A stretch of 39,130 bases of DNA, taken from positions 1-39,130 of IMG/VR virus record IMGVR_UViG_3300036406_000978. The stretch is one strand, 5' to 3'. The notes beneath the pieces were generated by a model, which was given only the letters and a program-made list of their open reading frames with translations, ran no database searches and was not told the DNA's origin. Origin of the DNA: a virus. This document shows positions 271 to 33,604 of the stretch, in pieces (positions within the stretch are counted from its first letter, which is position 1; each line of letters opens with the position of its first letter). Made by a program: the position numbers and the translations under genes.

Positions 271-1359
271 TTATTTAATAATTCCTGCTATTTTTTGCAT
301 TCTTTTGAATGTGTCATTAACTTCTACAATAGGCTTTCTTGCTGTTGGCATGATACCTGTTGTTTTAGATGCTAAACTAGTTTTTAATGATTCATTAACA
401 TGTGATTTAGAAGTTTCTTTTAATCCTTCTGATAATGTTTCGAATACTAATTTAGTTTCTTTTACTGTTGATGCTTTATCAAATGCATTTAAAACCTTTA
501 CTTTTTGTGACTCGGTTAAGTTTTTAGCTTTGAAAATTTTGTTAGTGTAAAGTAATTTCGCATTTAACAAATTAACTTCATTGATATCAGATCTCATAGT
601 AGAAATAGTAGACATAGCTTCTTCTAACTCATTTTTAAGTTTTTTGATTTCTTTTTTGTCTTCTTCGTCTTCTTTGTCTTTTTTGTCTTCGTCTTTTGAT
701 TTAATTAGTTTTTTTCTTTTAGCTTCATCTAATTCGATTTCAGCTAAAATTTCATCAATTGAAATTTCTTCTTCTTCACTTTCCATTTCTTCACCTTCTT
801 CACCTTTCATGTCTTCCATGCCTTCACCAGCTTCTAATTCACCAGCTTCAACCATGTCTTTAATTACGTCTTCAATGAATGATTTTAACTCTTCTTCAGT
901 CATGTCCTCGATGTTGATTTCTTCTTCAGTTTCAACTTCTTCTTCACCTTCTGCTTCGTTTAATTCTTCTTTCTTCATTTTGTCGTCTTCTTTAGCTTCA
1001 TACGCGGATTCTTTTTCCATGTCTTCTTCTAATTCAGCTAATAATTCTTCAAGATTAAGTTCATCTAACGGGTTACCTTCTTCTGTGTCGATGTTACCGT
1101 GATCATACTCAATTTCTTCTTTTTTAACTGGTTTGTAGCCCATTAAGTTTTCATCTTTTTTAGAATACATTTCTTCCATATTATCGTCCATTTCTGCCTC
1201 TTCCTTTTCTTCCATTTCTGCAAGTTTAGCTGATAGCATAGATTTTAATTGTGGAGTAAAGTGTTCTTCAAGAGCAGCTTTTGCGCTTGCTATTGCTGTT
1301 TCTTTAACAACTTTAGCATCTTCGATTGCTTCTTTAAGCAAATCTCTGTTTTTACTCAT
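271..1359 (-). CDS. 22: Prohead scaffold (core) protein, gp22-like
   Basis: This 362-residue protein is extremely acidic: long Glu/Asp-rich stretches fill residues ~60-240 and a coiled-coil-like Lys/Glu segment follows. That composition, and its position between the protease and the capsid gene, fit the T4 gp22 scaffold that fills the prohead and is later digested by gp21. I chose the ATG at 1357-1359 (M-S-K-N-R); the longer frame opens only with a GTG at 1389. The C-terminus ends R-M-Q-K-I-A-G-I-I-K, the same motif that opens four other proteins in this window, but without the final x-Glu. The motif could therefore be a scaffold/core binding element. A late-promoter sequence lies 55 bases upstream of the start. 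Confidence 0.88.
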   Translation of the reverse strand: MSKNRDLLKEAIEDAKVVKETAIASAKAALEEHFTPQLKSMLSAKLAEMEEKEEAEMDDNMEEMYSKKDENLMGYKPVKKEEIEYDHGNIDTEEGNPLDELNLEELLAELEEDMEKESAYEAKEDDKMKKEELNEAEGEEEVETEEEINIEDMTEEELKSFIEDVIKDMVEAGELEAGEGMEDMKGEEGEEMESEEEEISIDEILAEIELDEAKRKKLIKSKDEDKKDKEDEEDKKEIKKLKNELEEAMSTISTMRSDINEVNLLNAKLLYTNKIFKAKNLTESQKVKVLNAFDKASTVKETKLVFETLSEGLKETSKSHVNESLKTSLASKTTGIMPTARKPIVEVNDTFKRMQKIAGIIK

Positions 1360-1413
1360 TTGTCCTAAAATTTTGTTTGGGAAATACACTTATTTGAAGT
1401 GTAATAGAATTGT

Positions 1414-1421
1414 TATTTATA
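1414..1421 (-). promoter_or_regulatory. T4-type late promoter sequence TATAAATA
   Basis: The minus strand reads CTATAAATAAC here, an exact match to the T4 late promoter -10 element. It sits 55 bases before the scaffold start and just after two terminators, which is where a new late unit for scaffold and capsid would start. That late sigma-factor homologues (gp55-like) recognise it is inferred. Confidence 0.65.
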
Positions 1422-1422
1422 G

Positions 1423-1450
1423 ATACTGCAAATGCGATTGCGGGCAGTAT
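1423..1450. repeat. Dyad next to the late promoter
   Basis: ATACTGC (1423-1429) and GCAGTAT (1444-1450) form a perfect 7-base inverted repeat with a 14-base spacer, immediately upstream of TATAAATA in the direction of transcription. It could be an operator or an RNA/DNA hairpin. No regulator is identified. Confidence 0.45.
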
Positions 1451-1462
1451 ATTCTAATATAC
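1447..1462. repeat. Short perfect palindrome GTATATT-CT-AATATAC
   Basis: Two 7-base arms flank a 2-base centre and overlap the outer arm of the neighbouring dyad by four bases. The A/T-rich content makes a chance origin possible, but it lies in one of the few non-coding gaps, between the terminators and the late promoter. Confidence 0.35.
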
Positions 1463-1479
1463 ATATGTCCGGATTTTCT

Positions 1480-1498
1480 AAAAATGCACAGAAGTGCA
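1480..1498 (-). terminator. Intrinsic terminator, second of a tandem pair
   Basis: On the minus strand TGCAC-TTCT-GTGCA forms a 5-bp stem with a 4-base loop and is followed directly by five T residues. It lies just downstream of the stronger hairpin at 1502-1525. Confidence 0.6.
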
Positions 1499-1501
1499 AA
1501 G

Positions 1502-1525: not shown

Positions 1526-1531
1526 CATGTT

Positions 1532-2126: not shown

Positions 2127-2732
2127 TTAGAATAACGGACATGATCCATTAGCACATAAAATATCAGTAATAATTGAATTAATTTTACTGTATTGATTTA
2201 TACTAGGAATATATGATTCATTTAAGCTAGTTGGTAGCATCCATGAACCCGGATTAGAAGGTGTTGAAACGAAATCCCAACATAGTAATTCAAAGTCATC
2301 TTGTACTTCCATTACATTACCTTTTTGTTCTAATGAACCCATTCCTCTTGATGATACACCTACTGTAATACCACTATCGATTAATGCTTTTAAAATGTTA
2401 CCAGATGGAGTAGGTAAGATTTCAATCATACCCATTACATTATTTCCATCCCACCAGCATTTTTTAATATTATGTGAAACATTTTTTAAGTTAATAATTG
2501 AAGAATCTGGGTGGTCTAATTCACCTAAAGCTCTATTCTCACGAATTGATTCCATGTAGCGATCCATTTCACGTTCCCATAATTCTTTAGCGTAATATCT
2601 ACCATTACCGTTTTTTACTTCGACAGTAGCTAATACACCTTTTACTAATAGGTTACCTCCAGGATTAGTTCCTTCAGTTAAGCTAACAGCTTTGGGTGAG
2701 AATAATTGTGTTTCAATTAATACTTGTCTCAT
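2127..2732 (-). CDS. 21: Prohead core serine protease, gp21-like
   Basis: The 201-residue protein matches the T4 gp21 / peptidase S78-type prohead proteases. It has G-E-L-D-H74-P carrying the catalytic His, G-V-S-S-R-G (125-130) carrying the nucleophilic Ser, and C-W-D153-F-V-S-T-P-S, the usual acidic region. In T4 this enzyme sits inside the prohead, cuts after (I/L)-x-E and then itself. A matching site, L170-N171-E172, lies near the C-terminus and could be an autocleavage site. It precedes the nuclease and scaffold genes. Its presence makes the many I/L-x-E tags elsewhere in the window meaningful. Confidence 0.92.
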   Translation of the reverse strand: MRQVLIETQLFSPKAVSLTEGTNPGGNLLVKGVLATVEVKNGNGRYYAKELWEREMDRYMESIRENRALGELDHPDSSIINLKNVSHNIKKCWWDGNNVMGMIEILPTPSGNILKALIDSGITVGVSSRGMGSLEQKGNVMEVQDDFELLCWDFVSTPSNPGSWMLPTSLNESYIPSINQYSKINSIITDILCANGSCPLF

Positions 2733-4345: not shown

Positions 4346-4891
4346 TTAGTCTTTAAATAAGTTTATTAAGTCGTTTAAATAATCGTTTGCTAAATCAGTA
4401 CCATATAATACATTAAAATTAGGATTATTTTTATAGTAATCTAATGTTTTTTGTTTTGCGTTTTGTAATAATGGTAATAATTCGTTTAATTTTTGTTCTA
4501 ATGTATCAAATCCTTCTAATCTAGATTTGATAAATGTTTTTAATTCTGGTTTATCTATGTTTAAAGAATCAATATAAGCGTCTACATCTAATTGTGCTTC
4601 GTTTACATTTTCTTTCCACATTTGTTTAACTTCAATTCCCTTTGCCTGTTTATTTAATGCTTTTTGGTTAACTAACTTATATTTAAAGTTTTTAACATAA
4701 ATATTATTTGTTGTACCTTTAGAATTAGTATTTTTTTTATAAGCAGCATCGGTTCCTTCTTTTTTTACTTTTTCTGCTGTTTGTGGTCCTTCACCTGGGC
4801 TAAAAGCACCAGCTGATGCTCCACCTCCTGTGCCTGACTCTTCAGATATCTTTTTTAATGTATCTTTAATAATACGTTTTAAATTATCCAT
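4346..4891 (-). CDS. Putative internal head protein sharing the capsid's mature N-terminus
   Basis: The 181-residue protein begins with a basic amphipathic helix (M-D-N-L-K-R-I-I-K-D-T-L-K-K) ending at I15-S16-E17, a gp21-type site. After this site come E-S-G-T-G-G-G-A-S-A-G-A-F-S-P-G (18-33). The major capsid protein has the same pattern in the same register after V57-M58-E59 (Q-S-D-T-G-G-G-S-S-A-G-S-F-S-V-G). The rest is Lys-rich and helical. The start overlaps the previous gene by eight bases. A gp67/gp68-like core protein or a packaged internal protein fits best; the function is inferred from position and tag. Confidence 0.65.
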   Translation of the reverse strand: MDNLKRIIKDTLKKISEESGTGGGASAGAFSPGEGPQTAEKVKKEGTDAAYKKNTNSKGTTNNIYVKNFKYKLVNQKALNKQAKGIEVKQMWKENVNEAQLDVDAYIDSLNIDKPELKTFIKSRLEGFDTLEQKLNELLPLLQNAKQKTLDYYKNNPNFNVLYGTDLANDYLNDLINLFKD

Positions 4892-9642: not shown

Positions 9643-9916
9643 TGTATTTAGTTTTATATAAATCGGCTTTATATTTTAAACCCGATAATTTGGTTTTATT
9701 TTCAATTACTTGTTTTTTATAAACAGTAGCAACTGAATCTAATTGGGCAATTTTAATTTTAGTAGAGTCAATATTTGCTTGTAGTGAATCTATTTTATTA
9801 TTTAATGCTTCGTTTTCTTTAGCCAAACGGAAATTAGGATTAATGTTAAGAATATTTACAATTAATAACACTAATCCTATGTATCCTAAAAATTTAAGAA
9901 TTTCTTTATACAACAT
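9569..9916 (-). CDS. i-spanin-like protein (membrane anchor plus coiled coil)
   Basis: The 115-residue protein has one N-terminal transmembrane helix (residues ~8-24, L-G-Y-I-G-L-V-L-L-I-V-N-I-L) followed by a heptad-rich coiled coil with D-S-L-Q-A-N-I-D-S-T-K. This is the architecture of inner-membrane spanins (Rz type), which span the periplasm. I chose the ATG at 9914-9916; one codon earlier is a TTG. The start overlaps the preceding gene and the end overlaps the next spanin-like gene by 74 bases. With no endolysin nearby, lysis is a context-based inference. Confidence 0.55.
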   Translation of the reverse strand: MLYKEILKFLGYIGLVLLIVNILNINPNFRLAKENEALNNKIDSLQANIDSTKIKIAQLDSVATVYKKQVIENKTKLSGLKYKADLYKTKYNEEHNRINNLSNDALVSEFTNAFN

Positions 9917-10976
9917 CAAATGTATTTATTAAAGCTTCTACTTCTTTCTTTTCGTTGTTTTTTTCTTTTAATTTAGCTGCTAAATTTGATTTTTCGTCAC
10001 CTTTAGCCTCTTTATATTTATCAAGTAATGCTTGAATTTCTGCTTCTATTTTAATTTTCTTTTTTAAGTTTATATCTAATTCAGAAGTACGTTTAGTTAA
10101 TTTATTAGCTTTTTGAGTTGCTTGTTTATCAATAGCTGTTTCATCTGGTGCTGAATCTTCGTCGCTTACTTTATAGTAGTTGTCTGCTTCTTCTTCACCT
10201 GTCTCCATATCTTTTTCTATCGCTTTAACTGTTTTTTCTATTTTTTCTTTAGATGGTTTAACAGCTGCTGCTTTTGGAGCAGCTCCACCCATTGATACTA
10301 TACCTTTATCTTTTAACATAAGCATAAAGTCTCTAAAGGCACGAGTATTAAAACTAGCTGAATCAGGTAAACCTAAATCATTAGCTACAGTTTTCATAGA
10401 TGGTATTACTTCTTTATCTAAAAGATAGTTTAATACTTTTTTTGTATTACCTTCTTTAGCTTTATCAATTATATCTTTTAACTCTTGAGCTTTATCTACA
10501 TTTAAATTATAAGATACAGCCATTTCATTTAAATTATTTTCTTCATTAAGCAATAATTGTTTTAATTCAGCTGTAGTTGTTAATTTTTTCTTTACAAGAT
10601 ATTTAAGTAACTCTTTTAAAGAGTATTTAAGATCTTTATCTTGTAACCATCCTCTTTTAGTAGCATAATAATCATAAACATCTTTAACTGAATTTAATTT
10701 TTTAATATCCTCAATAAATTCATCTGGGTTTGGAGATACTTCTGATTCAAACTCGTATACTGCTTGTTGTAATAGGGTTAAATTATTATCTTCTTCTAAT
10801 GGTGTAATTTTTGTTATATTAGGATTTTCCTGTCTAAATTTATTAGCATCTGCTAAATCTTTAAATGAAGTTACTGTTTCTTTACCTGATTTGCCTTGTA
10901 TTCTAACTCCTATATTTTCTGACAATGTAGAAATAATTTCTTCACGTATAAAAGATTTAAATTCTTTGATTTTCAT
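9906..10976 (-). CDS. Putative internal head protein with N-terminal tag
   Basis: This 356-residue, very Lys/Glu-rich protein starts with a basic helix M-K-I-K-E-F-K-S-F and reaches I10-R11-E12 and then L18-S19-E20, both gp21-type sites. The remainder is helical; residues ~180-225 (A-N-D-L-G-L-P-D-S-A-S-F-N-T-R-A) could be a winged-helix-like fold. A low-complexity acidic linker and a Lys/Glu coiled coil follow. I recognise no family. The tag suggests packaging inside the head; a cytoplasmic DNA-binding role is the alternative. The gap upstream has an ATATTTATCAG variant of the shared intergenic element. Confidence 0.55.
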   Translation of the reverse strand: MKIKEFKSFIREEIISTLSENIGVRIQGKSGKETVTSFKDLADANKFRQENPNITKITPLEEDNNLTLLQQAVYEFESEVSPNPDEFIEDIKKLNSVKDVYDYYATKRGWLQDKDLKYSLKELLKYLVKKKLTTTAELKQLLLNEENNLNEMAVSYNLNVDKAQELKDIIDKAKEGNTKKVLNYLLDKEVIPSMKTVANDLGLPDSASFNTRAFRDFMLMLKDKGIVSMGGAAPKAAAVKPSKEKIEKTVKAIEKDMETGEEEADNYYKVSDEDSAPDETAIDKQATQKANKLTKRTSELDINLKKKIKIEAEIQALLDKYKEAKGDEKSNLAAKLKEKNNEKKEVEALINTFDVV

Positions 10977-11870: not shown

Positions 11871-12194
11871 TTATACTGCAAAACTTTCACCACATCCACA
11901 TGTTCGTGTTGCATTTGGATTATTGAATTGAAATCCTTTACCATTTAACCCATCTGAAAAATCAAGTTCAGTACCCGCTAGATATAGGAATGATTTCATA
12001 TCTAACACTAATTTTTCTCCGTTATCTTCAAATTCCTGGTCACCTGATTTAATAGTATTGTCAAAGTCTAATTTATAAGATAAGCCAGAACAACCTCCTC
12101 CTTGTACTGATACACGGAGGAAGTATGTTTCATCAAAATTAGATTCTAATTTGATTGCTTTTATTCTGTCTCTAGCTTTATCTGTTATTAACAT
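11871..12194 (-). CDS. A-type iron-sulfur carrier (HesB/IscA family)
   Basis: The 107-residue product has the three conserved Cys of A-type carriers: C35 in G-G-G-C-S-G-L, and C99 and C101 in the T-C-G-C-G-E-S-F ending. These proteins bind a [2Fe-2S] or [4Fe-4S] cluster and hand it to apo-enzymes. I start it at the ATG at 12192-12194 (M-L-I-T-D-K), which gives the family length; a longer in-frame opening would add 25 Lys-rich residues and overlap the previous gene. Phage copies are known in marine T4-like genomes and are taken as auxiliary metabolic genes. IscA and ErpA subtypes cannot be separated from the sequence. Confidence 0.88.
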   Translation of the reverse strand: MLITDKARDRIKAIKLESNFDETYFLRVSVQGGGCSGLSYKLDFDNTIKSGDQEFEDNGEKLVLDMKSFLYLAGTELDFSDGLNGKGFQFNNPNATRTCGCGESFAV

Positions 12195-12204
12195 TATATA
12201 AACA

Positions 12205-12534
12205 TTAATCTTCAGTTTCTTTATTTTCTTTACCTTTATCGGCTGTATGGAATTGATATCCAAATACAATCAACACAATATTTTTTATTAATTCAAATAA
12301 CCCATTACTCATTTCCGGAGTTAATAAAGGTGTTTTAAATGACACTAACTTATCAACTAAAAATAAACCTAAAAATGCTGTTAACATTAAAGCAACAAAT
12401 CTAGTTAACCATTCTTTTTGTGATAAATGTCCGCTAATTTTATAATTAACAAACCAAATTAATCCACCAACAAACACTAGTGATAAAGTAACACCAAATA
12501 TCATTGGTAGAAGTCCTGCGGTATATAAATCCAT
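12205..12534 (-). CDS. Small three-helix membrane protein, holin candidate
   Basis: The 109-residue protein has about three hydrophobic helices: ~9-29 (I-F-G-V-T-L-S-L-V-F-V-G-G-L-I-W-F), ~46-62 (F-V-A-L-M-L-T-A-F-L-G-L-F-L-V) and ~82-96 (L-I-K-N-I-V-L-I-V-F-G-Y). It ends in a short charged tail (D-K-G-K-E-N-K-E-T-E-D). Size, topology and polar C-terminus fit a class I-type holin, and spanin-like genes lie about 2.3 kb further along. No endolysin is adjacent, so another membrane role is equally possible. Confidence 0.5.
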   Translation of the reverse strand: MDLYTAGLLPMIFGVTLSLVFVGGLIWFVNYKISGHLSQKEWLTRFVALMLTAFLGLFLVDKLVSFKTPLLTPEMSNGLFELIKNIVLIVFGYQFHTADKGKENKETED

Positions 12535-12535: not shown

Positions 12536-13237
12536 TTAGTTATTATTGTATAATTTTAAGGTTCCACTACCTATTTCATAATTAGATAGTTCATATAATA
12601 CATATGATTGATTTTCAATCCAATCTCCTGTATTGATATACCTAATATTATCTATAGTTTTGTCTGCTGGTGTGTGAATATGTCCACAAATAACAGTATG
12701 GCAATTGCGTTTTTTAGCTTGTCTAATCATTTCATGCTCATAATCAACCATAAATGAAACAGCAGCTTTAACATTGTCTTTTAAATACTTAGATAAACTT
12801 GTTTTCTTATTAATTTTCTTTAATAGTCTATCAATAACAATAGCAGCATCATAACCAATTGAACCTAACATACCTAACCAATGCATTTTAATAATACCAT
12901 CGTATTTATCTCCATGACAAAACCAAATACCACCTTCAATAAATTCGTCTACTATTTTAATATTACCTAATTGCATAGGTGTGTATTTTCTTAAGAATTC
13001 ATCATGGTTACCTGATATCCAAATAATTTCTTTTTCTTTAGATATTTTAAACAACTTACGTATTACTTTGTTATGTTCCGCGCTAAACTTCTTATAACGC
13101 TGGAATAACCACCCATCAATAATATCGCCTACTAATATTAAGCGGTCGTATTCTACAGTTTTAAGTAGGTTTATGATGGCTTTAGTATTACAGCCTTTAG
13201 AACCTATATGTAGGTCAGACATTACTAATGTTTTCAT
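12536..13237 (-). CDS. Calcineurin-like metallophosphoesterase (LpxH-like)
   Basis: The 233-residue protein has all metallophosphoesterase motifs: S-D8-L-H10, G37-D38-I-I-D41, G-N77-H78-D79-E, C-H108-G-D and G185-H186-I-H188. Length and layout match the UDP-2,3-diacylglucosamine diphosphatase (LpxH/LpxH2-like) group of lipid A synthesis, but phage members are not proven to use that substrate. It follows the FAD dehydrogenase gene by one base and precedes the holin-like gene by one base, so the three are probably one operon. A role in host envelope chemistry or nucleotide hydrolysis is inferred. Confidence 0.8.
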   Translation of the reverse strand: MKTLVMSDLHIGSKGCNTKAIINLLKTVEYDRLILVGDIIDGWLFQRYKKFSAEHNKVIRKLFKISKEKEIIWISGNHDEFLRKYTPMQLGNIKIVDEFIEGGIWFCHGDKYDGIIKMHWLGMLGSIGYDAAIVIDRLLKKINKKTSLSKYLKDNVKAAVSFMVDYEHEMIRQAKKRNCHTVICGHIHTPADKTIDNIRYINTGDWIENQSYVLYELSNYEIGSGTLKLYNNN

Positions 13238-18988: not shown

Positions 18989-19636
18989 TTACCAAAAACC
19001 GGTAAATGTAGTTTTAAATCCTAATAAGTTAGCATAACGAGGTAATCTACATGACCAGTAACGTGCTGTTGTTTTATCTTTAGCTTGTGGGCAATTCATT
19101 CTGTCTGAAAATGCTTTACGTGCTTTAGGATTGTTTAGTTTTGCTCTTAAAGCTCCACCAGCCATGCCAAATGATATTTTTTTAACTTTATCACCGTCTT
19201 TAACATAAACGTAGAATTTTTTAGATCCACCACGTTTTGGTTTACCTAATGCTACTTCTTTACCTTGGTATTTAGCTTCAGTTATTATTTCCATTAATGG
19301 TAAATCTAAAGGTACAAATTCACCTTCATATTTTGCCCATCTACCAATATCTGTTCGTTCAAATATTTTTTTATCTGTACCTTGTAATTCAATAATACCT
19401 TTAGACCATAACATTCTCGCTTCAGTCAATAATTTTTGATGAGCGAAACTGCCTGGGCGGTATATATTCTCAGTAAGCTGTATTTTACTGTCTATATGGT
19501 AACGCATCGCCTCAGATATCGCCATATTGTACTGCTTAGACTCTACGAGTAAAGGCGGTGTATTGCAGTGTTTGCATGAATCGGTTACTTTGTAATTTTG
19601 CAAAGTTTCTGAGATAAGTTGTTTTAATTTATTCAT
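18989..19636 (-). CDS. Tagged polyprotein ending in a basic Cys-containing domain
   Basis: The 215-residue protein opens with a class C-like tag (M-N-K-L-K-Q-L-I8-S-E10-T). Several more gp21-type sites follow: L-T-E near residue 56, L-L-T-E-A near 72 and I-I-T-E-A near 120. The last one immediately precedes a strongly basic domain, G-K-P-K-R-G-G-S-K-K-F-Y-V-Y-V ... N-P-K-A-R-K-A-F ... Y-W-S-C-R-L-P-R-Y-A. That domain is recurrent in marine phage proteins and probably binds nucleic acid. A CxxC pair (C21, C24) lies after the tag. Processing would release the basic domain as a separate internal polypeptide. A TATTTATA element lies four bases before the ATG. Confidence 0.6.
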   Translation of the reverse strand: MNKLKQLISETLQNYKVTDSCKHCNTPPLLVESKQYNMAISEAMRYHIDSKIQLTENIYRPGSFAHQKLLTEARMLWSKGIIELQGTDKKIFERTDIGRWAKYEGEFVPLDLPLMEIITEAKYQGKEVALGKPKRGGSKKFYVYVKDGDKVKKISFGMAGGALRAKLNNPKARKAFSDRMNCPQAKDKTTARYWSCRLPRYANLLGFKTTFTGFW

Positions 19637-20729: not shown

Positions 20730-21440
20730 TTATTTAAATTGTTTTAAATTATTAAATGCATTTCGTAATTGTTCATCATTAGCGTTTAATAAAGCAATAA
20801 AAGTATTCGCTAATATTGTGTTAGCAGCTGTATTTAACATTTTTTTATTTTTTACTAAACTAATAGTATTATTAAAGTTTGAACGATTAAAATCTTTAAT
20901 TTTTAAATCGTCCCATACATCTGTTTTAATTTGACCTTGAAGTTTTGGACTGTCAATAGTGATTTCTAAAATTTGTTCTTTTATTAATGTTTTAAGTTCT
21001 GACTTTTTCATAATATTTTCTTGTATTCCGGTTATTGTTCTACCTGCGTATGTATTTTTAAGATAATCTACTAGTTTAGCATTCATATTAAAATCATCTT
21101 CTAAAGATTTTGTATCTGGCTCAGATTCAATAGCTTTAGTTATTAATTGTATAAATCCATTTTCAACAGTATCATCAATTATAGCACTTGTTTCATCATC
21201 TACTTGTAATTTATCTAACCAAGTTTTTGTTTTTTTAGTATCTGGGGCTTTAACAAATGCTCTAATAAAGTCAACTGCTGATTTTGCTGTCCCTATACCC
21301 GGTATTATTGTTTTAGCAGCATCTATAGCTGCTTCTATTCCTACATCTAATGCTTTAGAGCCAACACTTCCTGTTTTCTTGGTTAGCTGTATATTTCTAA
21401 TAGCTTTTTTTAAATCACCGTATGTTTCTAAATTAGCCAT
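20730..21440 (-). CDS. Two-part protein joined by an internal class B motif
   Basis: The 236-residue protein has an N-terminal half (1-140) rich in small hydrophobic residues: I-E-A-A-I-D-A-A-K-T-I-I-P-G-I-G-T-A-K, then T-W-L-D-K-L and I-I-D-D-T-V-E-N-G-F. I recall this block from marine phage polyproteins. At 144-160 lies M-K-K-S-E-L-K-T-L-I-K-E-Q-I-L-E-I, the same basic helix that serves as N-terminal tag in other genes, with I-K-E and I-L-E cleavage options. A C-terminal helical domain follows. It looks like a fusion of two packaged units. Function unknown. Confidence 0.55.
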   Translation of the reverse strand: MANLETYGDLKKAIRNIQLTKKTGSVGSKALDVGIEAAIDAAKTIIPGIGTAKSAVDFIRAFVKAPDTKKTKTWLDKLQVDDETSAIIDDTVENGFIQLITKAIESEPDTKSLEDDFNMNAKLVDYLKNTYAGRTITGIQENIMKKSELKTLIKEQILEITIDSPKLQGQIKTDVWDDLKIKDFNRSNFNNTISLVKNKKMLNTAANTILANTFIALLNANDEQLRNAFNNLKQFK

Positions 21441-21926: not shown

Positions 21927-23302
21927 TAGTTTTTATTTTCTTTGTTCCAGTCTGATAAACTCATCATACCTACTTCAGTATCATAATCATCATAATAATT
22001 ATTTTTTACTCGTTGGCCTATTTTTTGAGCTTCAGCTTTTGAATTTAAAGTATGTCTTAATTTTTTACCGGTTTTATCTACATTGATCCATACTACCCAC
22101 TTTTCACCTTCTGTGGCTTCTTCTTTAACCATTGGTTTTTTAAGTTTAGCCATTATCTTTTCAGCTAATGTTGAGTTTGTTGAAGATTTAACTTCATCCA
22201 TGTTCTGTGCATTTACAGCATTGAAAACTGCTTGACTATATTTTGACACTACTTCTTTTTCCGATTTTCCAGCATCAATCATTTTTTTAGCTGCTGCAAT
22301 ATCCTGTTTAAATTGTGTTGGTTTAGATGATTTAACTCTATATTCTTCTTGTGCATCAGTAGCCTCATCCATTGGTTCATCCATTACTGGGATAATATCT
22401 TCGTAATCCTGCATTGATAATGTTTCTTTACTTTTATTAATTTCAATAGCTTTTTCAGCTACATCATGTAAATCCATATCTGCTTTAGCGTCTTCACGAG
22501 CAAATTCTAACATACGAATAAATAAAGGTACATCCATAGTAACTGTATCTACTGCATCTTTAGCTTCTGCTTCTTCTTCATTTACTCCTTCGTTTACTAA
22601 ACCAGCTTTAAGAACCTGCATAATAGCAAAGTAAGCATCATCAACACCGTAACCATAATCTTGAGCTACTTCTCTAATAAAGTCTTCTACTTTTTGTACT
22701 AATTCAAGATTAACATTTTCTTTTGATGCGAAAAATTTAGATTCTTCTTGAATCATAGCATCTAAAGCTGGTTGTTTTTCTTCAAATTCTAAATAATGTT
22801 TAGCTTTGTCCATATAATCAGCAGCTAAATGAATTTTTTCTTGCCACCAATCAGGAAAATCAACTTCTTGATCCATTTGATCATACTTGTCTAGCATTTT
22901 ATATAAACCAGCAGCGTATTGTGCTATACGATAAACAGATGCTTTTAACATATCTGGTTCATCATCTTGATGACCTAAATCAATGTCTTCGTTTTTAAAT
23001 TTAACTCCTCTGCCTATTAGAATATCTTTTCGAGTCACTTCATTATCACCACTTAAGTCAGGGAATTCACCACCTACGGGACCCATAAGAGTCTTCTTAA
23101 TCATTTCACGTACTTTATCTTTATTCATGTTTTCTACTGTTTTTTTAGCTATATTAGTAGCACGTCCATACATTACTTTTTCAGCAATATTACCATAACG
23201 TTTTACTAACGATGATTTTTTTGTTTTAAGTTGTTTAATAACCTGATCACGTTTTTCTAATTCCTTAGGAGTTAATAGTCTTTCAGTGATGCTTTGTTTC
23301 AT
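21926..23302 (-). CDS. Large phage polyprotein of unknown function
   Basis: The 458-residue protein begins M-K-Q-S-I5-T-E7, a short gp21-type site. It has a basic N-terminal 90 residues, then a block D-L-G-H-Q-D-D-E-P-D-M-L-K and V-D-F-P-D-W-W-Q-E-K-I with a following helical repeat Y-L-E-F-E-E-K-Q-P-A-L-D, which I recall from marine phage polyproteins. The middle is acidic. The C-terminus (W-V-V-W-I-N-V-D-K-T-G-K-K-L-R-H) looks like a small separate beta domain. No catalytic motif is evident. One-base overlaps join it to both neighbours. Confidence 0.6.
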   Translation of the reverse strand: MKQSITERLLTPKELEKRDQVIKQLKTKKSSLVKRYGNIAEKVMYGRATNIAKKTVENMNKDKVREMIKKTLMGPVGGEFPDLSGDNEVTRKDILIGRGVKFKNEDIDLGHQDDEPDMLKASVYRIAQYAAGLYKMLDKYDQMDQEVDFPDWWQEKIHLAADYMDKAKHYLEFEEKQPALDAMIQEESKFFASKENVNLELVQKVEDFIREVAQDYGYGVDDAYFAIMQVLKAGLVNEGVNEEEAEAKDAVDTVTMDVPLFIRMLEFAREDAKADMDLHDVAEKAIEINKSKETLSMQDYEDIIPVMDEPMDEATDAQEEYRVKSSKPTQFKQDIAAAKKMIDAGKSEKEVVSKYSQAVFNAVNAQNMDEVKSSTNSTLAEKIMAKLKKPMVKEEATEGEKWVVWINVDKTGKKLRHTLNSKAEAQKIGQRVKNNYYDDYDTEVGMMSLSDWNKENKN

Positions 23303-24648
23303 TATCTTAAAATTCTTTTTAACATTGGAAACATATTTTCATTAATTTGATCTAATTTACCTTTAGCTTTTTTAGCTTCAGCTATGTTAGGATAACTATC
23401 ATCATAAACATCCATACTGTCATCATAATTATCATCATTATCATCACCTGGATTGTCTCCAGCATCATACTGATTTAAGAAATCTTCTAATTTCATTTCT
23501 GGATTTTTCTGTATTGCTGTAAACATATCATTTATTATGTCTTCATTGTCCATGTTTGATAAAATATCATATATAGCATTAGCACTATCATCATTTATAG
23601 CTTCATTAATTGGAGCTGTATCTAAGATATGAGCTTTAGTAAAATAAGTAATTGTATTAGCAATTTGAGTGATTAATTTTTCATCACCTAATGCTTTTGC
23701 TTCAGCATATGCCGCTTGTAAGTTAGCTTGAATACCTGATACTTCAGCTGATTCACCAGCCATCATATCTGATTCAGGAGCATCAACTACTTCAGTATCA
23801 TCTACTGTTACATCTTCAACTTCTTCTTTATCTTTTTTAGCTTCATTAAGGTTAATTAATTTAGCTATTTCATCTTTACCTAATAGATCTTCTAATTCTA
23901 CACGTTGGTTAAGAGAAAGCTCGTCACCATTGTTAAATTTAGCTGAAGAAATATAACCAGTATCATATATATTACCTTCTACATCAATTGATCCAAGATC
24001 AACATCATTTATATCTAAAAGTTTGTAATTACCATCTTCTGCTTCAGCTATTTTTGATTCATTAAAATCGTAAGCATTACTAGTGTCATTGATATTAACA
24101 TCTTCTGTAGAATCTTCATTTAATTCAGCTAAAATCATTTCTTTGATTTGCTCTTTAAGTTTAGATTTAGTCATCTTTTCTTTTTCAATTTTTTTACCAG
24201 CTGCTTTACCTTTTTCATATTCGTAAGCACCTTCACCTTCGCTCATTTGTGTATTATTTAATTTAGATAAATCATTTGGATTAATAACAACTATTAAATT
24301 ATCAATTTCTTGACCATATCCTATTGGACTATCACCTACTTCATTTTTTACTCCAATAGAAGTTAAATAATTACTCATTTCATCTGCTAATTTATCTACT
24401 GTATTATTTAAAAATGATTTTTCTTTATCTTTTAAATAATCTCTATCACCAAAATCCATAGAATTTTCTATTTCTTTAAAATTATCACTGTTAGTAACAA
24501 CTAAATAAAGTTCATTATCTACTTTATAGTATTCAACATTTTTAAATTTACCAAAACTTACTTTTGGATCTTTGTTTAATTGATTTTCTTTAATAATACC
24601 CGCTAATTTTTGCATGCGAGCTAATTGTTCATTTAATGTTGGTTTCAT
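23302..24648 (-). CDS. Tagged polyprotein with class A and internal class B motifs
   Basis: The 448-residue protein opens with N6-E-Q-L-A-R-M-Q-K-L-A-G-I-I-K-E21. A second module begins with A-Y-E-Y-E-K-G-K-A-A-G-K-K (~141-153) and the class B helix M159-T-K-S-K-L-K-E-Q-I-K-E-M-I-L-A, ending at L176-N-E178. The C-terminal part is very acidic and carries A-K-A-L-G-D-E-K-L-I-T-Q-I-A-N-T-I-T-Y-F-T-K-A-H (~315-338), a helix pair recurrent in marine phage polyproteins. The two tags in one chain suggest at least two products after gp21 cleavage. Functions unknown. Confidence 0.6.
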   Translation of the reverse strand: MKPTLNEQLARMQKLAGIIKENQLNKDPKVSFGKFKNVEYYKVDNELYLVVTNSDNFKEIENSMDFGDRDYLKDKEKSFLNNTVDKLADEMSNYLTSIGVKNEVGDSPIGYGQEIDNLIVVINPNDLSKLNNTQMSEGEGAYEYEKGKAAGKKIEKEKMTKSKLKEQIKEMILAELNEDSTEDVNINDTSNAYDFNESKIAEAEDGNYKLLDINDVDLGSIDVEGNIYDTGYISSAKFNNGDELSLNQRVELEDLLGKDEIAKLINLNEAKKDKEEVEDVTVDDTEVVDAPESDMMAGESAEVSGIQANLQAAYAEAKALGDEKLITQIANTITYFTKAHILDTAPINEAINDDSANAIYDILSNMDNEDIINDMFTAIQKNPEMKLEDFLNQYDAGDNPGDDNDDNYDDSMDVYDDSYPNIAEAKKAKGKLDQINENMFPMLKRILR

Positions 24649-26732: not shown

Positions 26733-27689
26733 TTATTTTATTAGACTTTTTATTTGTTCTCTAATGACTTCTTTTAATTCTTCTTTAGTCATTTTGATTT
26801 TCATGTATTCTGCTTTAGGATTATCAGGTATTTTTTCAATATTACCTAATTTAAATTGTTGCATAAAATATACTTTTGCTTCTTCAGAGTCTGGATCTAT
26901 TTCATCATTTTTAGTTTCATCAATTGAAGGTGAAGACATTTTAGCAAAATCATTTGATCTAATGTATACTTGTACTGTACCATTTTTTAAATCATTTATA
27001 TCATGATCCTCAATATTGTATTTTGTTGATAATTTATCAACAATCTTATTACCTTTTTCTAATGCTAATTTAGCACCTTTTTCGCTTTCTTGACCTGACA
27101 TAGTCTTAGAACCTAAAGCAGTTGAAAATCCAGGACCAGATGGATATTCGATATTGATTAAAAAGACGTTTGGGTCGTTTTTATCTTTACGACTTGTAAT
27201 TTTTAAATTTTCTTTATTTACCATTGCTTCATCTACTGCTTCCTTATCAGCTACTGAATAATCAATTTTAGCATTTTTCATTACTACATCAATCATTTTT
27301 TTAGTTAAATTTTTAGATGGATTTCCTGATTTAGGGAAAACAATAGTATCATCTTTAGCTTTATATTTTAATAATGTAGATTTACTATTAAATGCTTTAA
27401 TAAAAGCAAGATTAGATGAATTAGTGAATTCAGGAAATTTACCTTGATTCGCTTTTACTCTACGCTCAGCGGGTGTTCCAAAATAAGCCTCTTTTGCTTT
27501 TCTCATTTTTGGATCATTATTATTCAGATTAGAAATATATATTCCGTAATTATCTATATTTTCTAAAGCTTTAATTGTATCTTCTACAGAAACACCTTTA
27601 GGAGTAAGTATAATATCGTAATCTACTTGTTCACGATTTGAAGGTGTAGCTTCTGCTTCTGCTTCTCTTAATTTGTATTTGTAAGCCAT
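26733..27689 (-). CDS. Putative internal head protein, class B motif at the C-terminus
   Basis: The 318-residue protein starts M-A-Y-K-Y-K-L7-R-E9, a short gp21-type site, and ends with M300-T-K-E-E-L-K-E-V-I-R-E-Q-I-K-S-L-I-K318. That ending is the same basic helix that starts or interrupts other proteins here. The scaffold also keeps its tag-like motif at the C-terminus, so position at either end may work. The body is mixed alpha/beta with G-P-G-F-S-T-A-L-G-S and V-Y-I-R-S-N-D. No family is recognised. Confidence 0.55.
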   Translation of the reverse strand: MAYKYKLREAEAEATPSNREQVDYDIILTPKGVSVEDTIKALENIDNYGIYISNLNNNDPKMRKAKEAYFGTPAERRVKANQGKFPEFTNSSNLAFIKAFNSKSTLLKYKAKDDTIVFPKSGNPSKNLTKKMIDVVMKNAKIDYSVADKEAVDEAMVNKENLKITSRKDKNDPNVFLINIEYPSGPGFSTALGSKTMSGQESEKGAKLALEKGNKIVDKLSTKYNIEDHDINDLKNGTVQVYIRSNDFAKMSSPSIDETKNDEIDPDSEEAKVYFMQQFKLGNIEKIPDNPKAEYMKIKMTKEELKEVIREQIKSLIK

Positions 27690-27690: not shown

Positions 27691-28086
27691 TTACTGCTGT
27701 AATTTTTTAATTAATTCTTGAGCTTTTTCTTTTTTAGTTTTAATATCCTCTCTAGATGTTCTAAATTCATCCATTGATGTTTTTAAGTCATCAATTTGGG
27801 TATCACGAGCTTTTAAAGCTTCAGTTGCTGTTCTACTAGCGTCTGATTTATTTTTGAACATACCTAATACATTTTCAAATTTTAATCCGCCTTTAATTTT
27901 ATCAGCAAATTTGAATGCATCAGCATCAAATAAAATATTTTCTTTAGTTGATTTAGTGTCTGGTTTAATAACAACAAAGAATTTACCTACTTCATCAACC
28001 ACATCGTAGTCTTTAGTGATAACTTCTTTTACTTCCATTGTTTTTTCTTCCAAATTTTCTCTTAAAAGGTCAATTAATTTTTTCAT
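27691..28086 (-). CDS. Small coiled-coil protein with class C tag
   Basis: The 131-residue protein opens M-K-K-L-I-D-L-L8-R-E10-N, the ten-residue tag. The first half is beta-rich (Y-D-V-V-D-E-V-G-K-F-F-V-V-I-K-P) and the second half a long charged helix likely to form a coiled coil (A-L-K-A-R-D-T-Q-I-D-D-L-K). Function unknown; the tag places it in the putative internal-protein group. Confidence 0.55.
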   Translation of the reverse strand: MKKLIDLLRENLEEKTMEVKEVITKDYDVVDEVGKFFVVIKPDTKSTKENILFDADAFKFADKIKGGLKFENVLGMFKNKSDASRTATEALKARDTQIDDLKTSMDEFRTSREDIKTKKEKAQELIKKLQQ

Positions 28087-28105: not shown

Positions 28106-30580
28106 TTATTTATTTTTTTTACTGTCTTCATATGTACGTAACATCATATTTCCTAATTTGTAAGCTTCTTCTTCAATTTCAGGTAAATCTCCGTCTTCGT
28201 TTGTATTAGTAGTGTTAATATTATTTAATCTATTTTCTAAATTTTGCATATGATGTACCATTTCATGTGAAAATGAACGTAAAACATCTTTAGGATGTCT
28301 ATTCATAGTAAATAAAGTAATTGATTTTTCTTCTGGGTTGTAAAATGCTGTTTTACCAAATACGTTTTCAGCATTAGCTTTATCATTGTTAATAAATTTA
28401 ACAACAGGTAATGGTTTAATATTCATTCCTTGATCAATCATATATTTAGTTAATCCAGGAATATATTTTTTATAGTCATTATTTTCTTTACCTTCTTTTA
28501 AATCTTCTACTTTATTAACAGCTAAGATATAATTTTTTATGTTATCAATTCCATCTTCAGGACCTTTAAAAGATATTCTTTCTTCTTGTTCATCATAATC
28601 ACCAGTATTATTAAAGAAATCTCTTACTACACTTTCAGGTTCATCTTCTAACCAATTATATTCCCAATTGTCTTCATAGTTCCATCCCGGTCTGTAGGCA
28701 AAAGGTGTTATTTTATATTTGTCAGATAATTTGTCTCCATCTAATGTAATTCTATAATCTGTTTTTACTCCAAAATTAGATCCTTTTTTATAGAAATTTT
28801 TATTACGAGTAAATGAAATATAATATAATTCATTACCTAAATAATTTTCTTCAGAGGTATTTATTTTATTAGACTGAAGGATGCCTTTTAATCCATCGGC
28901 TGATGTGTAGTGATATAAAGGACCAACTTGCTTACCTTCTTCTAATCCACCAGGTGTATCTAATTTTTTACCTGTTTTAACATCTGTATCATAATCACAA
29001 GTTCCTTCATTTAAATTAGGATTATTATCATGTTCACATATACTACCATCTGGTAATTTGTTATGACATATATATAAATCTTTACCTCCATCAGCTATTT
29101 TCCAGGTCCAACCACATTTATCACAAATAACTTTTGTGTTTGTTACTAGTTCTGTAACTACTTTAGATAAAGTATTAAATATTTTTGTTTTTTCTTTTAC
29201 TTCTTCAGGAATAAAAGGCAAAAATGCTTCTTGTCCTTTTTTTAATGCTTGACGAGCGTCTGTTCCACTTTCATCTAATTGAGTATCAATAATAGCTAAT
29301 TCAATATTTTTATAATCACTTATAGCTCCTGTTTTTGACGCTATGTCTGCTAAATCTTTACTATTGTTTGGGCGAACTCCTTCAACCCATATTATATGTT
29401 CATCAGGATGAGTCTCAGCATACTTATAAGTTGCTTTAACTGGTGAACTAGTTAATTGTATTTCTATGTTTGAAGGTAAATATTTTTCATAGATTTCCCA
29501 AATATCTTTTGATTCAAGTGAAGTAATTCCATTTCTTGTTCCTGATCCGACATAAATAATAAATTTATTTATTTGTGGAAATTTTTCTAATACTATTTTA
29601 ACAGCTTTAAAATGACCTTTATGAGGTGGTTTAAAACCACCTGGATAAATTGCTACTGTTTTCTTTGAATCTGCTTCAATTAAAGGCAAGATTAATTCTC
29701 TAACTAATCCTTTAAATAATTTATTTTCTAATAAACTACTAACAGCATCTAATGCTGCTTGTTTATTATCACCTTTAGGTGTATCAACTTCTCCACTTTT
29801 AATAGATACCATTGATTTAAATATACCTTTTATTCTATTTTTAGAACGTTCGTTTTTTAATTTAGATTTTAAATCTTGTAATAATGTTTTAAAATCACCA
29901 TCTATATTGTAATTGTCGAATAATTTTTTAACAACACTCCAATTTGAAGATTTCCAAACCTCAGTTCTATCAAGTTCTTTAAAATTATCTAATGTTACTA
30001 TACGTAATGTTAATCCAGCGCTTGATAAATTGAATTCATATTCTTGATTTGCTTCAAGTTCAGGTACATTAGTAATACCTAATCTAGCGAATATTTTTTT
30101 AGGATCTTCTTCTAAACAAATTACTTTAGCTAAACCTAAAAGTAAACCTTGTACTTCAGCTGGGTAGTCTAAGAATGTATTTTTAAATGTTGATTCTTCT
30201 TCACTAATAGAAACAATGTTATCTATTTGAACAAATTCATCAGGTACACCACTTATAGGATATAATACAGTTACTAATTCACCACTACTAAGTGATTTTT
30301 TTCCTTTATATTTATCACTTTTAAAAGGTACAATAACTGAATCGGGCAAAGAAGCAAAATATTTAGCTAAATCTTGTTTAACTAATTTTTTATCTTTACT
30401 ATCTAAATGAACAATTAAATCAATATCACCAAAATCTTGTTTAGTCCCTGTGTTATAAGAACCAGTTGCCTTAGCGTCCTTAAATCCAGGGAATTTAGAT
30501 AATACATTGTCTATATAATCCTGAACAGTTTTTTCTACCGCCGCCCTAGATATTCTATTTCCACCTGCTGAACCTGACAT
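28106..30580 (-). CDS. Multidomain polyprotein: NTase, NMNAT-like, zinc ribbon, ART-like, zincin
   Basis: This 824-residue protein contains several domains. Residues 40-120: a polymerase-beta-like nucleotidyltransferase with G-S-Y-N-T-G, D52-I-D54 and D120. Residues ~308-465: an NMNAT/cytidylyltransferase fold with G-G-F-K-P-P-H320-K-G-H323 and S438-G-T-D-A-R443. Residues 486-517: a zinc ribbon (C486, C489, C505, C515). From 555: L-Y-H-Y-T-S and later I-S-F-T-R, resembling ADP-ribosyltransferase folds. From ~700: a zincin protease with H772-E-M-V-H776 and a downstream Glu in E-I-E-E-E-A-Y. Possible gp21 sites L-N-E525, L-E-E548 and L-K-E696, each followed by Gly, fall at domain borders. T4 Alt is a packaged ADP-ribosyltransferase, so a cleavable packaged effector chain is plausible. 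Confidence 0.7.
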   Translation of the reverse strand: MSGSAGGNRISRAAVEKTVQDYIDNVLSKFPGFKDAKATGSYNTGTKQDFGDIDLIVHLDSKDKKLVKQDLAKYFASLPDSVIVPFKSDKYKGKKSLSSGELVTVLYPISGVPDEFVQIDNIVSISEEESTFKNTFLDYPAEVQGLLLGLAKVICLEEDPKKIFARLGITNVPELEANQEYEFNLSSAGLTLRIVTLDNFKELDRTEVWKSSNWSVVKKLFDNYNIDGDFKTLLQDLKSKLKNERSKNRIKGIFKSMVSIKSGEVDTPKGDNKQAALDAVSSLLENKLFKGLVRELILPLIEADSKKTVAIYPGGFKPPHKGHFKAVKIVLEKFPQINKFIIYVGSGTRNGITSLESKDIWEIYEKYLPSNIEIQLTSSPVKATYKYAETHPDEHIIWVEGVRPNNSKDLADIASKTGAISDYKNIELAIIDTQLDESGTDARQALKKGQEAFLPFIPEEVKEKTKIFNTLSKVVTELVTNTKVICDKCGWTWKIADGGKDLYICHNKLPDGSICEHDNNPNLNEGTCDYDTDVKTGKKLDTPGGLEEGKQVGPLYHYTSADGLKGILQSNKINTSEENYLGNELYYISFTRNKNFYKKGSNFGVKTDYRITLDGDKLSDKYKITPFAYRPGWNYEDNWEYNWLEDEPESVVRDFFNNTGDYDEQEERISFKGPEDGIDNIKNYILAVNKVEDLKEGKENNDYKKYIPGLTKYMIDQGMNIKPLPVVKFINNDKANAENVFGKTAFYNPEEKSITLFTMNRHPKDVLRSFSHEMVHHMQNLENRLNNINTTNTNEDGDLPEIEEEAYKLGNMMLRTYEDSKKNK

Positions 30581-31573: not shown

Positions 31574-31581
31574 TATAAATA
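31574..31581 (-). promoter_or_regulatory. Intergenic TATTTATATATAA element
   Basis: The minus strand reads TAATATTTATATATAAACA, 14 bases before the nucleotidyltransferase ATG, in the gap that separates replication genes from the tagged-protein block. Confidence 0.35.
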
Positions 31582-31588
31582 TTAATAC

Positions 31589-32377
31589 TTATACTCCTAT
31601 TTGAATTTCTGTAGGATACTGTTCAGATGATGGGCGAGGATTTGGATTTTCTAATTTAAATAAATTATGAATTGAATGAAATAATGTTAAATTATCTTCA
31701 ATGCTACGCTCAGATTCTGCTAATTCCCAACCTTTACCTTGGATTTTTTTATTGTTTTTATCAGGACCGTGTTTAGCTGACTTTAACCATAATATACCTG
31801 CGCGTTCTATTTTTTCTTCAAAATTTTCATTCCACGCTTGTGAGTAAGCAGCTAATTGTAATTCTTGACTTGTATGTAATGATTTTGATGTTTTAATATC
31901 TACCATCCATTTTTCACCATTAATTTCAAGTACTAAATCGCAAGTACCAGCGTATATGAATTGATCTGAAAATAAATGGATTTCGCTTTCTACTAATGTT
32001 GGTTTATAAGTATTCCAAAAATCATGGAATTTTAAAATCATTTTCCATACATCTAATGAATAAATAGATGTTCCGTTCTCATCAAACCATTGTAGTTTTT
32101 CACCTTTAAGATATCTTTCAGCAGCGTCATGTACTTGAGTACCTTCTTCAGCTGCTCTACGAGCAATAATATCTGCGTTATGTCCTACATCTTTAAGCCA
32201 GTTTTCAAAATATTTATTTTTTGGCATAAATTGCAATATATTAGTAACAGATGGATAATAATTTCCATTTCTACTATAGAATCTACTGTCTAATATATTA
32301 ACTCGTTTAGAATCTACATCCGCTTCTAAAATACGTTTAACGTGTTTTTTGTTAATGTTTACATTTTTTTCTATCAT
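31589..32377 (-). CDS. RecB-like PD-(D/E)XK nuclease
   Basis: The 262-residue protein has the RecB/Cas4-type nuclease signature: G-T-Q-V-H83 on the first helix, E130 (V-E-S-E), Y-A-G-T-C-D147, V-D160-I-K162-T-S-K and Q174-L-A-A-Y178. Such enzymes are DNA exonucleases or nicking nucleases in phage replication or recombination. It overlaps the primase stop by four bases (ATGA), so it is translated with the primase and probably acts in DNA metabolism in the cell, not in the virion. No T4 gene number is assigned. Confidence 0.82.
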   Translation of the reverse strand: MIEKNVNINKKHVKRILEADVDSKRVNILDSRFYSRNGNYYPSVTNILQFMPKNKYFENWLKDVGHNADIIARRAAEEGTQVHDAAERYLKGEKLQWFDENGTSIYSLDVWKMILKFHDFWNTYKPTLVESEIHLFSDQFIYAGTCDLVLEINGEKWMVDIKTSKSLHTSQELQLAAYSQAWNENFEEKIERAGILWLKSAKHGPDKNNKKIQGKGWELAESERSIEDNLTLFHSIHNLFKLENPNPRPSSEQYPTEIQIGV

Positions 32378-33303
32378 AATGATAATTTTTTCTCAAGTAA
32401 GCCTGAGAAGGTTAGGGGATAGGTGTTCTGTATCAATTCAGTAAAATGTCTAAATCCTAATTCGCTTGGATCTTTACCATCTAAATCTACTAAATATACT
32501 TCTTTGCCTTCATTTATTAATTGTTCACAAAATTGTAATGCTTCTCTTAATGCGTCTCTATCTAAAGCTACGTAAATTTTCTTAACTGATGATGCTACTA
32601 GCTTTAACATCAACGTAGACTGTATATTCTTGCCTAATAACGGTATAACATTTCGTTTAATAGCAATGGCGTCAAACATTCCTTCGCACAGTATAATCGG
32701 TGTATTCCAGTTTATAAACAGTTCGAATGGTATAACGTTACGTGACACATCTGGATTCTTATATTTAAGGCTTGATGTTTTATCAAAATTACGAGCAGTA
32801 AAATAATTTAATTTACCTGTAGCATCATATGATGGTAAAATAATCATTTTATTAAATTTACCACCCTCACAATAACCTATATTATATTTTAATATATCGT
32901 CTTCTGTTATACCTCGTTTTTTAATATAATTTAAAGCATGTTTACCTATGATATTACTATCAGATATATTAGCTAATGGTTTAAATTCTTGAGGTAATTT
33001 TAAAATAGTTGTAGTTTGTACTATTTTTTCACCTGATGTGTACTTAACTAATGGTCTTAGTTCTGCTAACTTATCAGGATCGGCATGTATTGCTTTAAAT
33101 AGATTAATTAATGATTTACCTTTTTTATTACAACTCCAACAATGCCATGGATTTTCACTTTTATCTGATTCAGTAAAATTGATTTCTAACTTAGGTTTAT
33201 GGTGATTACAAAAAGGACAATGATATGCGTAGTTGCCTTTTGATGTAGATTTACTAATGCCTAAAACCGAGTTTACTAAATTTACAAGTAGTTGATTTAC
33301 CAT
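32374..33303 (-). CDS. DNA primase, DnaG/gp61-like
   Basis: The 309-residue protein has a zinc-binding domain with C29-P-F-C32 and C55-W-S-C58, then a TOPRIM domain: I-I-L-C-E207-G-M-F-D, V-A-L-D248-R-D250 and D-L-D-G-K-D-P-S-E. This is the layout of DnaG-type primases that make RNA primers for lagging-strand synthesis; T4 gp61 is the counterpart. I start it at the ATG at 33301-33303 (M-V-N-Q-L-L) because the longer frame would begin inside the terminator hairpin just upstream. No helicase is adjacent. Confidence 0.88.
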   Translation of the reverse strand: MVNQLLVNLVNSVLGISKSTSKGNYAYHCPFCNHHKPKLEINFTESDKSENPWHCWSCNKKGKSLINLFKAIHADPDKLAELRPLVKYTSGEKIVQTTTILKLPQEFKPLANISDSNIIGKHALNYIKKRGITEDDILKYNIGYCEGGKFNKMIILPSYDATGKLNYFTARNFDKTSSLKYKNPDVSRNVIPFELFINWNTPIILCEGMFDAIAIKRNVIPLLGKNIQSTLMLKLVASSVKKIYVALDRDALREALQFCEQLINEGKEVYLVDLDGKDPSELGFRHFTELIQNTYPLTFSGLLEKKLSL

Positions 33304-33318
33304 ACCTTGTACTATAAC

Positions 33319-33343
33319 AAAAAAAGCTTGGTTTCCCAAGCTT
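33319..33343 (-). terminator. Intrinsic terminator before the primase gene
   Basis: On the minus strand AAGCTTGG-GAAA-CCAAGCTT is a perfect 8-bp stem with a 4-base GAAA loop, followed by a run of T. It ends 15 bases before the primase start, so the primase unit would need its own promoter or rely on read-through. Confidence 0.8.
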
Positions 33344-33364
33344 AACTTAATATAATTTTATATT

Positions 33365-33604
33365 TTAAAATTCTCCATGTTGTAATGTAAACAATACTTC
33401 TTTTAATTGTTTAGCGAATTCTTCTTGTATTTTTTGATATTCATCGTCTTTAGGATTTTCAAATACTTCTATTTCATATAAATCAACATATTGTTCAAAA
33501 GCGGGCATGAATTCTTGTTTAAGTTTAAACAAGGTGCTGTCAACTGATTCTGGCTCTTCTTTAATTATACCAGCTAATTGTTGCATTCTTGTAATGTCTT
33601 TCAT
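33365..33604 (-). CDS. Small acidic protein with class A tag
   Basis: The 79-residue product starts M-K-D-I-T-R6-M-Q-Q-L-A-G-I-I-K-E16, the class A tag reduced at its front, with E16 as predicted cleavage site. The remaining ~63 residues are acidic and helical (F-E-Q-Y-V-D-L-Y-E-I-E-V-F). It lies outside the main block of tagged genes, between a nuclease and the terminator before the primase. A TATTTATA element lies 15 bases before the ATG. Confidence 0.6.
   Translation of the reverse strand: MKDITRMQQLAGIIKEEPESVDSTLFKLKQEFMPAFEQYVDLYEIEVFENPKDDEYQKIQEEFAKQLKEVLFTLQHGEF

Follow-up and report, generated by a model that had tools for sequence, protein, structure and literature searches.

The 39,130-nucleotide virus sequence analyzed here (IMG/VR record IMGVR_UViG_3300036406_000978, positions 1 to 39,130; a 39-kb fragment, hereafter the window) contains a T4-type head module, consisting of terminase, portal, gp21, scaffold, and the start of the major capsid protein (MCP). 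It also contains a short peptide element, NxxFx[RK]MQxLAG[IL], which is found at the C-terminus of the scaffold and at the N-termini of four other proteins. The scaffold occupies the gp22 position (271-1359, minus strand), between the gp21 and MCP genes, and is acidic and mostly helical. The protease is of the gp21 type (Peptidase_S77; 2127-2732, minus strand; PF03420, E = 4.9e-30; phrog_207, E = 9.8e-57), and the MCP is represented by its N-terminal part, truncated by the end of the window (1-243, minus strand), with a predicted propeptide site V-M-E at 67-75. The scaffold, which was aligned within a set of 34 (A2), gave no match at 0.01 in Pfam and PHROG searches; by tblastn it is 56% identical to gp067 of Flavobacterium phage immuto over 43% of the query.

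The C-terminal copy of the element, NDTFKRMQKIAGIIK (274-318, minus strand), forms the scaffold end, with KPIVEVNDTFKRMQKIAGIIK (RMQKIAGIIK) as the last residues before the stop codon at 271-273; just upstream lies I-V-E, a gp21-type site and predicted cut (322-330, minus strand). The N-terminal copies, termed tags, are also on the minus strand and extend over 16-21 residues up to a Glu. Three have this Glu at residue 21: MKQLLNEQFLRMQKLAGIITE (15668-15730) opens a 349-aa protein (14681-15730), MKPTLNEQFIRMQKIAGVINE (15949-16011) an 89-aa protein (15742-16011), and MKPTLNEQLARMQKLAGIIKE (24586-24648) a 448-aa protein (23302-24648). The shorter MKDITRMQQLAGIIKE (33557-33604), with Glu at residue 16, opens a 79-aa protein (33365-33604). 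An earlier note on this DNA had reported the element at four N-termini and the scaffold C-terminus, and the positions and Glu residues that it gave (21, 21, 21, and 16) all match the sequence. Its consensus, NEQFxRMQKLAGIIxE, fits only the first copy exactly, as the fourth has no NEQF and the scaffold reads NDTFK and K-I-A-G. Chance or composition as the origin of these copies was ruled out by simulation: the core regular expression [RK][MFWI][QRK]x[LIM]AG[ILVM] has 5 six-frame matches in the window, compared with a mean of 0.025 and a maximum of 1 in 40 first-order Markov windows.

Spread of the element and protease-type sites around it

In order to follow the element among relatives, we collected nine loci from a scaffold search and the best 80 of 593 from a gp21 search, giving 89 loci with the window and immuto, some of which are near-identical contigs. 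After 18 of the 89 had been set aside because no closed scaffold open reading frame was present (cut or not found), the element formed the scaffold end in all 71 remaining loci, typical ends being IIEVNDAFARMQRLAGLRK, IVEVNDTFKRMQKIAGIIK, and IIETDPMVARFQKLAGLK. Further viral contigs were retrieved with a DNA pattern for the tag, which matched in at least 119 stretches. An early regular expression also matched an unrelated KFRELMGM family, which was excluded later. A looser form of the core gave 204 distinct matches (129 N-terminal, 60 C-terminal, and 15 internal) in the 2.37 Mb of the window, immuto, and relatives, versus 2 matches, both dissimilar, in 1.04 Mb of control contigs. The strict copies across loci number 126 N-terminal, 59 C-terminal (53 scaffold and 6 other), and 15 internal. 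The tag profile matched 13 of 14 records, the scaffold end being the only match in G008, and the five records above 120 kb have four or five copies apiece, scaffold ends excluded, some of them twice in one open frame.

The proteins that carry the element are diverse. When bodies were joined at a BLAST E of 1e-5 over 40% of the shorter body, with the window, immuto, and bodies below 60 aa excluded, 132 tagged non-scaffold proteins fell into 76 body clusters that are mutually unrelated by BLAST, and in 4 of the 76 the position class of the tag varies between members. Among the window proteins, the 349-aa protein has homologues in other records with bodies 74-85% identical and tagged MNLQFLKMQKLAGLITE or MSQQFLKMQKLAGLITE, the 448-aa protein has partial homologues among the loci, mostly tagged and some without tag, and the body of the 79-aa protein has no homologue among the loci besides itself. 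The earlier note had placed the cargo copies at N-termini; this holds for all four in the window, but relatives also have internal and C-terminal copies. In three non-scaffold proteins (L240:3232-4188, L107:1501-2148, and L238:8728-9165), the element lies at most 3 residues from the C-terminus, with V/L/I-N-E before it. In several loci, including L097, L105, L163, L196, L207, and L210, tags lie deep inside proteins with a gp21-type site on each side; if these internal tags are cut, one precursor would yield two proteins.

The position of gp21-type sites follows the position of the element in the protein. A Glu-ended site directly follows the core in 122 of 126 N-terminal copies, including all 17 from loci fetched via gp21 or scaffold alone. 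All 15 internal copies have, besides a site past the core, an [LIM]-x-E that ends exactly 3 residues before it. At the scaffold tails, 50 of 53 distinct C-termini have [LIM]-x-E at a distance of 5-6 residues ahead of the core: it is at exactly 6 in 46 and at 5 in L189 and L200, and L085 and L167 also carry the site. The Glu that ends the upstream site, at position -4, is found in 15 of 15 internal copies, 5 of 6 non-scaffold C-terminal copies, and 48 of 65 long N-terminal copies, and in only 2 of 57 short N-terminal copies, in which the closest Met, at -6, was assumed to be the start. Its near absence from the short copies may be explained by there being nothing upstream to free, and a Met does not forbid the site, as three internal copies have Met at that place. 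By the same rule, a C-terminal copy would need a site on its upstream side only, which may explain why the scaffold copy has no x-Glu; the earlier note was right that it is lacking, yet this copy is not unbounded, because the I-V-E site lies on its upstream side. In the MCP, the aligned site NQAKQLVxE has its Glu in 46 of 47 sequences, and the residue after V-x-E is mostly A, S, Q, or T (the scaffolds of L060 and L069 have no readable MCP start). Going by the position in T4, this V-x-E is at the expected place of the gp23 propeptide cut.

The co-occurrence of tag and gp21, proposed as a check in the earlier note, proved to be strong. We compared 44 tag and 44 control contigs, the ones that reach 15 kb among 80 listed out of 119 stretches fetched. 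PF03420 was found over the cut-off in 24 of the 44 tag contigs versus 4 of the 44 controls (5 at an E of 0.001), and at 50 kb and above in 14 of 16 versus 1 of 12. The two large tag contigs without PF03420, of 98.8 and 65.6 kb, may be fragments. The earlier note had also named a motif common in non-packaged proteins as an outcome that would speak against its proposal, and we tested for it. The DNA pattern matched twice in 84,980 bacterial and archaeal genomes, which rules out a motif common in cellular proteins. One match (L380), a real tag, comes from a phage contig with gp21, scaffold, and MCP that had been sorted into the bin of a Flavobacteriaceae metagenome-assembled genome; the other (L381) looks like chance in a GC-rich frame. 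Comparison of 76 cargo representatives with Pfam and PHROGs revealed no strong replication or metabolism family, the results being domains of unknown function and weak single matches; the weak matches outside such domains include VipA (0.0011), haloacid dehalogenase-like (0.0018), rhodanese-related (0.00099), and DnaB-like helicase (0.0048), with one member each.

Scaffold tails and the proposed packaging tag

Among 50,697 phage records, tblastn with the tag gave matches solely in four immuto records. The immuto scaffold gp067 ends with SEQVSRWQKLAGIIK (RWQKLAGIIK), and gp230 and gp083 both begin MKKQILSEQF(K/R)RMQ(F/K)LAGIITES; in the six-frame proteome of this 160-kb genome, the scaffold and the two N-terminal copies alone rise above noise (scores of 56, 34, and 27; next 22). 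This scaffold (NC_055915.1, 125626-126867) is annotated as 'DNA polymerase phi-like protein', whereas its position and sequence indicate a prohead scaffold. A virion proteome of immuto was not found in the searched literature. More distant scaffolds also end with the element: that of Microcystis phage Mel-JY01 with ILNESNNVVERMKKLAGIVK (RMKKLAGIVK), and that of a 484-kb uncultured jumbo phage (LR756508) with ILNEDVEMKSRMQKLADIS (RMQKLADIS). No cargo copy was detected in the Mel-JY01 genome, where the scaffold end scores 51 and the next best match 25. Because the Mel-JY01 scaffold has the element in a genome without a detected cargo copy, the use as scaffold end is probably older and the cargo tag derived. 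In the AlphaFold2 model of the window scaffold, a linker at residues 320-342 (predicted local distance difference test, pLDDT, below 50) precedes a nine-residue helix (349-357) and a five-residue end; the block has a pLDDT of 83 for residues 351-360 and 59 for the final two, within a whole model of predicted template modeling score (pTM) 0.28.

From these patterns we infer packaging, cleavage, binding to a docking partner, and injection as follows. The original place of the element would be the extreme C-terminus of the scaffold, as a short helix-plus-end peptide on a flexible tether, which would dock the scaffold onto the inner face of the immature shell, most likely on the MCP. In the lineage of the window, many unrelated proteins would have acquired a copy of the same peptide, which would act as their packaging tag. 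Tagged proteins would occupy scaffold-type docking sites during prohead assembly and so be enclosed in the prohead, where gp21 would cut at the hydrophobic-x-Glu between tag and body, leaving the cargo free in the head to be injected with the DNA. We assign a probability of roughly 70% to the reading of the element as a gp21-removable packaging tag copied from the scaffold C-terminal tail and probably docking on the MCP. Given a packaging tag, the MCP is its partner with a likelihood of about two in three, by analogy with the tails of the 80alpha scaffold and SaPI1 CpmB, which bind the capsid protein. The chances are even, in our estimate, for a broader formulation, in which the element is a position-independent, excisable packaging module: a copy of the scaffold docking tail at the start, middle, or end of a protein, with a gp21 site toward any protein to be freed, would load a phage-specific injected set, and internal copies would split a precursor into two cargos.

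Several points weigh against the reading as a scaffold-derived tag that docks on the MCP. Some homologous body stretches have no tag, and copy counts include related sequences, 10 of the 15 internal copies being from one body cluster. Four of the 126 N-terminal copies (in L123, two in L140, and in L147) have no site directly past the core, and 3 of the 53 scaffold tails (L078, L087, and L090) have IIK or IIA in place of the upstream Glu. Moreover, loci L126-L244, the set in which 84 of 87 N-terminal copies have the site, were fetched by a pattern already containing ITE, and the tag profile includes ITE too. The scaffolds of T4, Cr30, and cyanophage S-MbCM100 do not have the element. In T4, the scaffold tail (VYAKVASRF) and the capsid targeting sequence (CTS) are unlike each other, whereas here the tag equals the scaffold C-terminus; the T4 tail as a source of the T4 CTS was rejected, as a comparison by eye showed no likeness. 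The tag profile found no cargo copy in the jumbo phage, a weak negative because the same profile also missed the scaffold end of that phage. The terminal letters of the scaffold are GIIK in the window and include GLRK, GLKK, GLK, and GIKK elsewhere; the RIIK motif of 80alpha is absent, and the likeness to 80alpha is an analogy. AlphaFold2 models were of low quality: that of the scaffold had a pTM of 0.28, and that of the cargo (pLDDT of 32) could not be used. Co-variation of tag and scaffold within records was tried as support and set aside as weak and confounded by ancestry: across 16 records, the likeness of the tag was 7.23/13 to the scaffold of its own record and 6.84/13 to those of other records (70 of 5000 permutations). 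Finally, the T4 CTS has affinity for the core, and the internal proteins (IPs) co-purify with gp22, according to the available text of PMC9026906.

This last point belongs to the main rival, in which the element is the same packaging tag and its partner is a core component (a scaffold-scaffold contact, a gp67/gp68-like protein, or the portal), with cargo held in the core as in T4, where prohead assembly begins from portal and core (available text of PMC9026906). We regard it as unlikely: in 80alpha and SaPI1 the C-terminal tail of the scaffold is described as binding the capsid protein (available text of PMC5644958), and the AlphaFold2 model, though of low pTM, places the scaffold tail on a disordered linker. 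In other phages too, the scaffold C-terminal tail binds the capsid protein. The earlier note had proposed a co-assembly handle by which scaffold and cargo bind one core partner; the shared element stands, conserved across a large phage group and on unrelated bodies, but the partner is more likely the MCP than a separate core partner. Very improbable, in our judgment, is a role mainly as a docking or recognition peptide for gp21, which would mark substrates while the cargo entered the head otherwise; nearly every copy of the element does have a site only a few residues away, but the predicted site of the MCP has no element beside it, and the Mel-JY01 scaffold retains the element in a genome in which no cargo copy was found. 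That the N-terminal copies are paralogous leftovers, or an unpackaged domain that serves some different purpose during infection of the cell, such as regulation or membrane binding, would agree with most bodies having no known family, but is hardly credible given 76 body clusters, near absence from cellular genomes, linkage to gp21, and, in nearly all copies, a protease-type site between tag and body.

Under the preferred reading, of a packaging tag copied from the scaffold tail, the sequence signature would flag, by reading alone, unknown proteins of aquatic T4-like phages that are probably packaged and injected. Immuto, growing on Flavobacterium, offers a cultured model, and the tag might be used to load proteins into phage heads.

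Other proteins of the window

Five further proteins on the minus strand (16273-16803, 17243-17560, 17557-18609, 18989-19636, and 27691-28086) may form a second tag class. They begin, in that order, MIKLINLLTE, MINLIQLLTE, MIKLINLLKE, MNKLKQLISE, and MKKLIDLLRE, and in each a hydrophobic-x-Glu site closes at residue 10, a stretch as long as the T4 CTS. A similar protein to 17243-17560 in immuto, gp082, begins MRLLELLRE. By eye, a third recurrent amphipathic element, MKKSELKxLIKEEIxxxL, was seen at the starts, insides, and ends of proteins, places of this type being 9906-10976, 18609-18977, inside 20730-21440 and 23302-24648, and the end of 26733-27689. A TGGG(S/A)SAG(S/A)FS stretch is common to the MCP (1-243), past its predicted cut site, and to the start region of a 181-aa protein (4346-4891).

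The 824-aa protein at 28106-30580 has nucleotidyltransferase-like, cytidylyltransferase-like, and HYD1-type ADP-ribosyltransferase-like matches, all below Pfam cut-offs, and contains an HExxH-like stretch, HEMVHH; judged from its sequence, it is possibly an Alt-like injected enzyme. Three genes adjoining the cargo region presumably encode, judging by motifs, an A-type Fe-S carrier-like protein (11871-12269), a metallophosphoesterase-like protein (12536-13237), and an FAD/NAD oxidoreductase-like protein (13239-14561).

Comparison with known systems

Searches of the Protein Data Bank with the scaffold profile and with the 349-aa cargo gave no match. The strings RMQKLAG, QKLAGI, MQKLAGII, and LNEQFLRMQ were not found in the searched literature, nor was a description of a cargo tag that copies a scaffold tail found in the available text of those sources, subscription papers being mostly outside this scope.

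The N-termini of P1 DarA and MCP and the ejection proteins of the giant phage SPN3US resemble the present case in that internal proteins carry propeptides which a prohead protease removes, an arrangement that is predicted here. In SPN3US, several propeptides exceed 100 residues and one has 20. In contrast to our phages, no scaffold-tail copy is described for P1 and SPN3US in the available text, and P1 is said to have no separate scaffold (PMC12810830, PMC5694885, PMC7411985).

Another likeness, for the docking step, is found in 80alpha, where the scaffold ends in 16 residues, an amphipathic helix and a hook (RIIK), that occupy a cleft of the capsid protein, and in SaPI1, whose CpmB has the same motif and competes for the site of the scaffold on the capsid protein (available text of PMC5644958). 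As proposed for our phages, a C-terminal helix plus end of the scaffold is also used by a second protein, and the scaffold model here, though of low pTM, has a similar layout. However, CpmB itself acts as a scaffold and alters the size of the capsid, its copy is C-terminal, and no cutting is described in the available text, whereas the copies studied here are on diverse cargo-like proteins, mostly N-terminal, beside protease-type sites, and without RIIK.

In T4, N-terminal propeptides of 10-19 residues send IPs to the core, and gp21 removes them by cutting at L/I-x-E; when the cut position is Asp, cutting stops while targeting is kept (available text of PMC9026906). The tags described here are like the CTS of IPI-IPIII and Alt in being short N-terminal peptides on different proteins, with a hydrophobic-x-Glu end, in phages with gp21, a scaffold in gp22 position, and gp23. 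They differ in that, by eye, there is no sequence likeness to MKTYQEFIAE (IPII, IPIII) or MKTFKEF (IPI), the type of terminal site alone being in common, and in that relatives here also have internal and C-terminal copies, with a site toward each neighboring stretch. For the T4 CTS, the core and co-purification with gp22 are named and no binding site is defined in the available text of PMC9026906; a tag that visibly copies the scaffold end would provide, for this phage group, a direct and testable answer to where a CTS binds.

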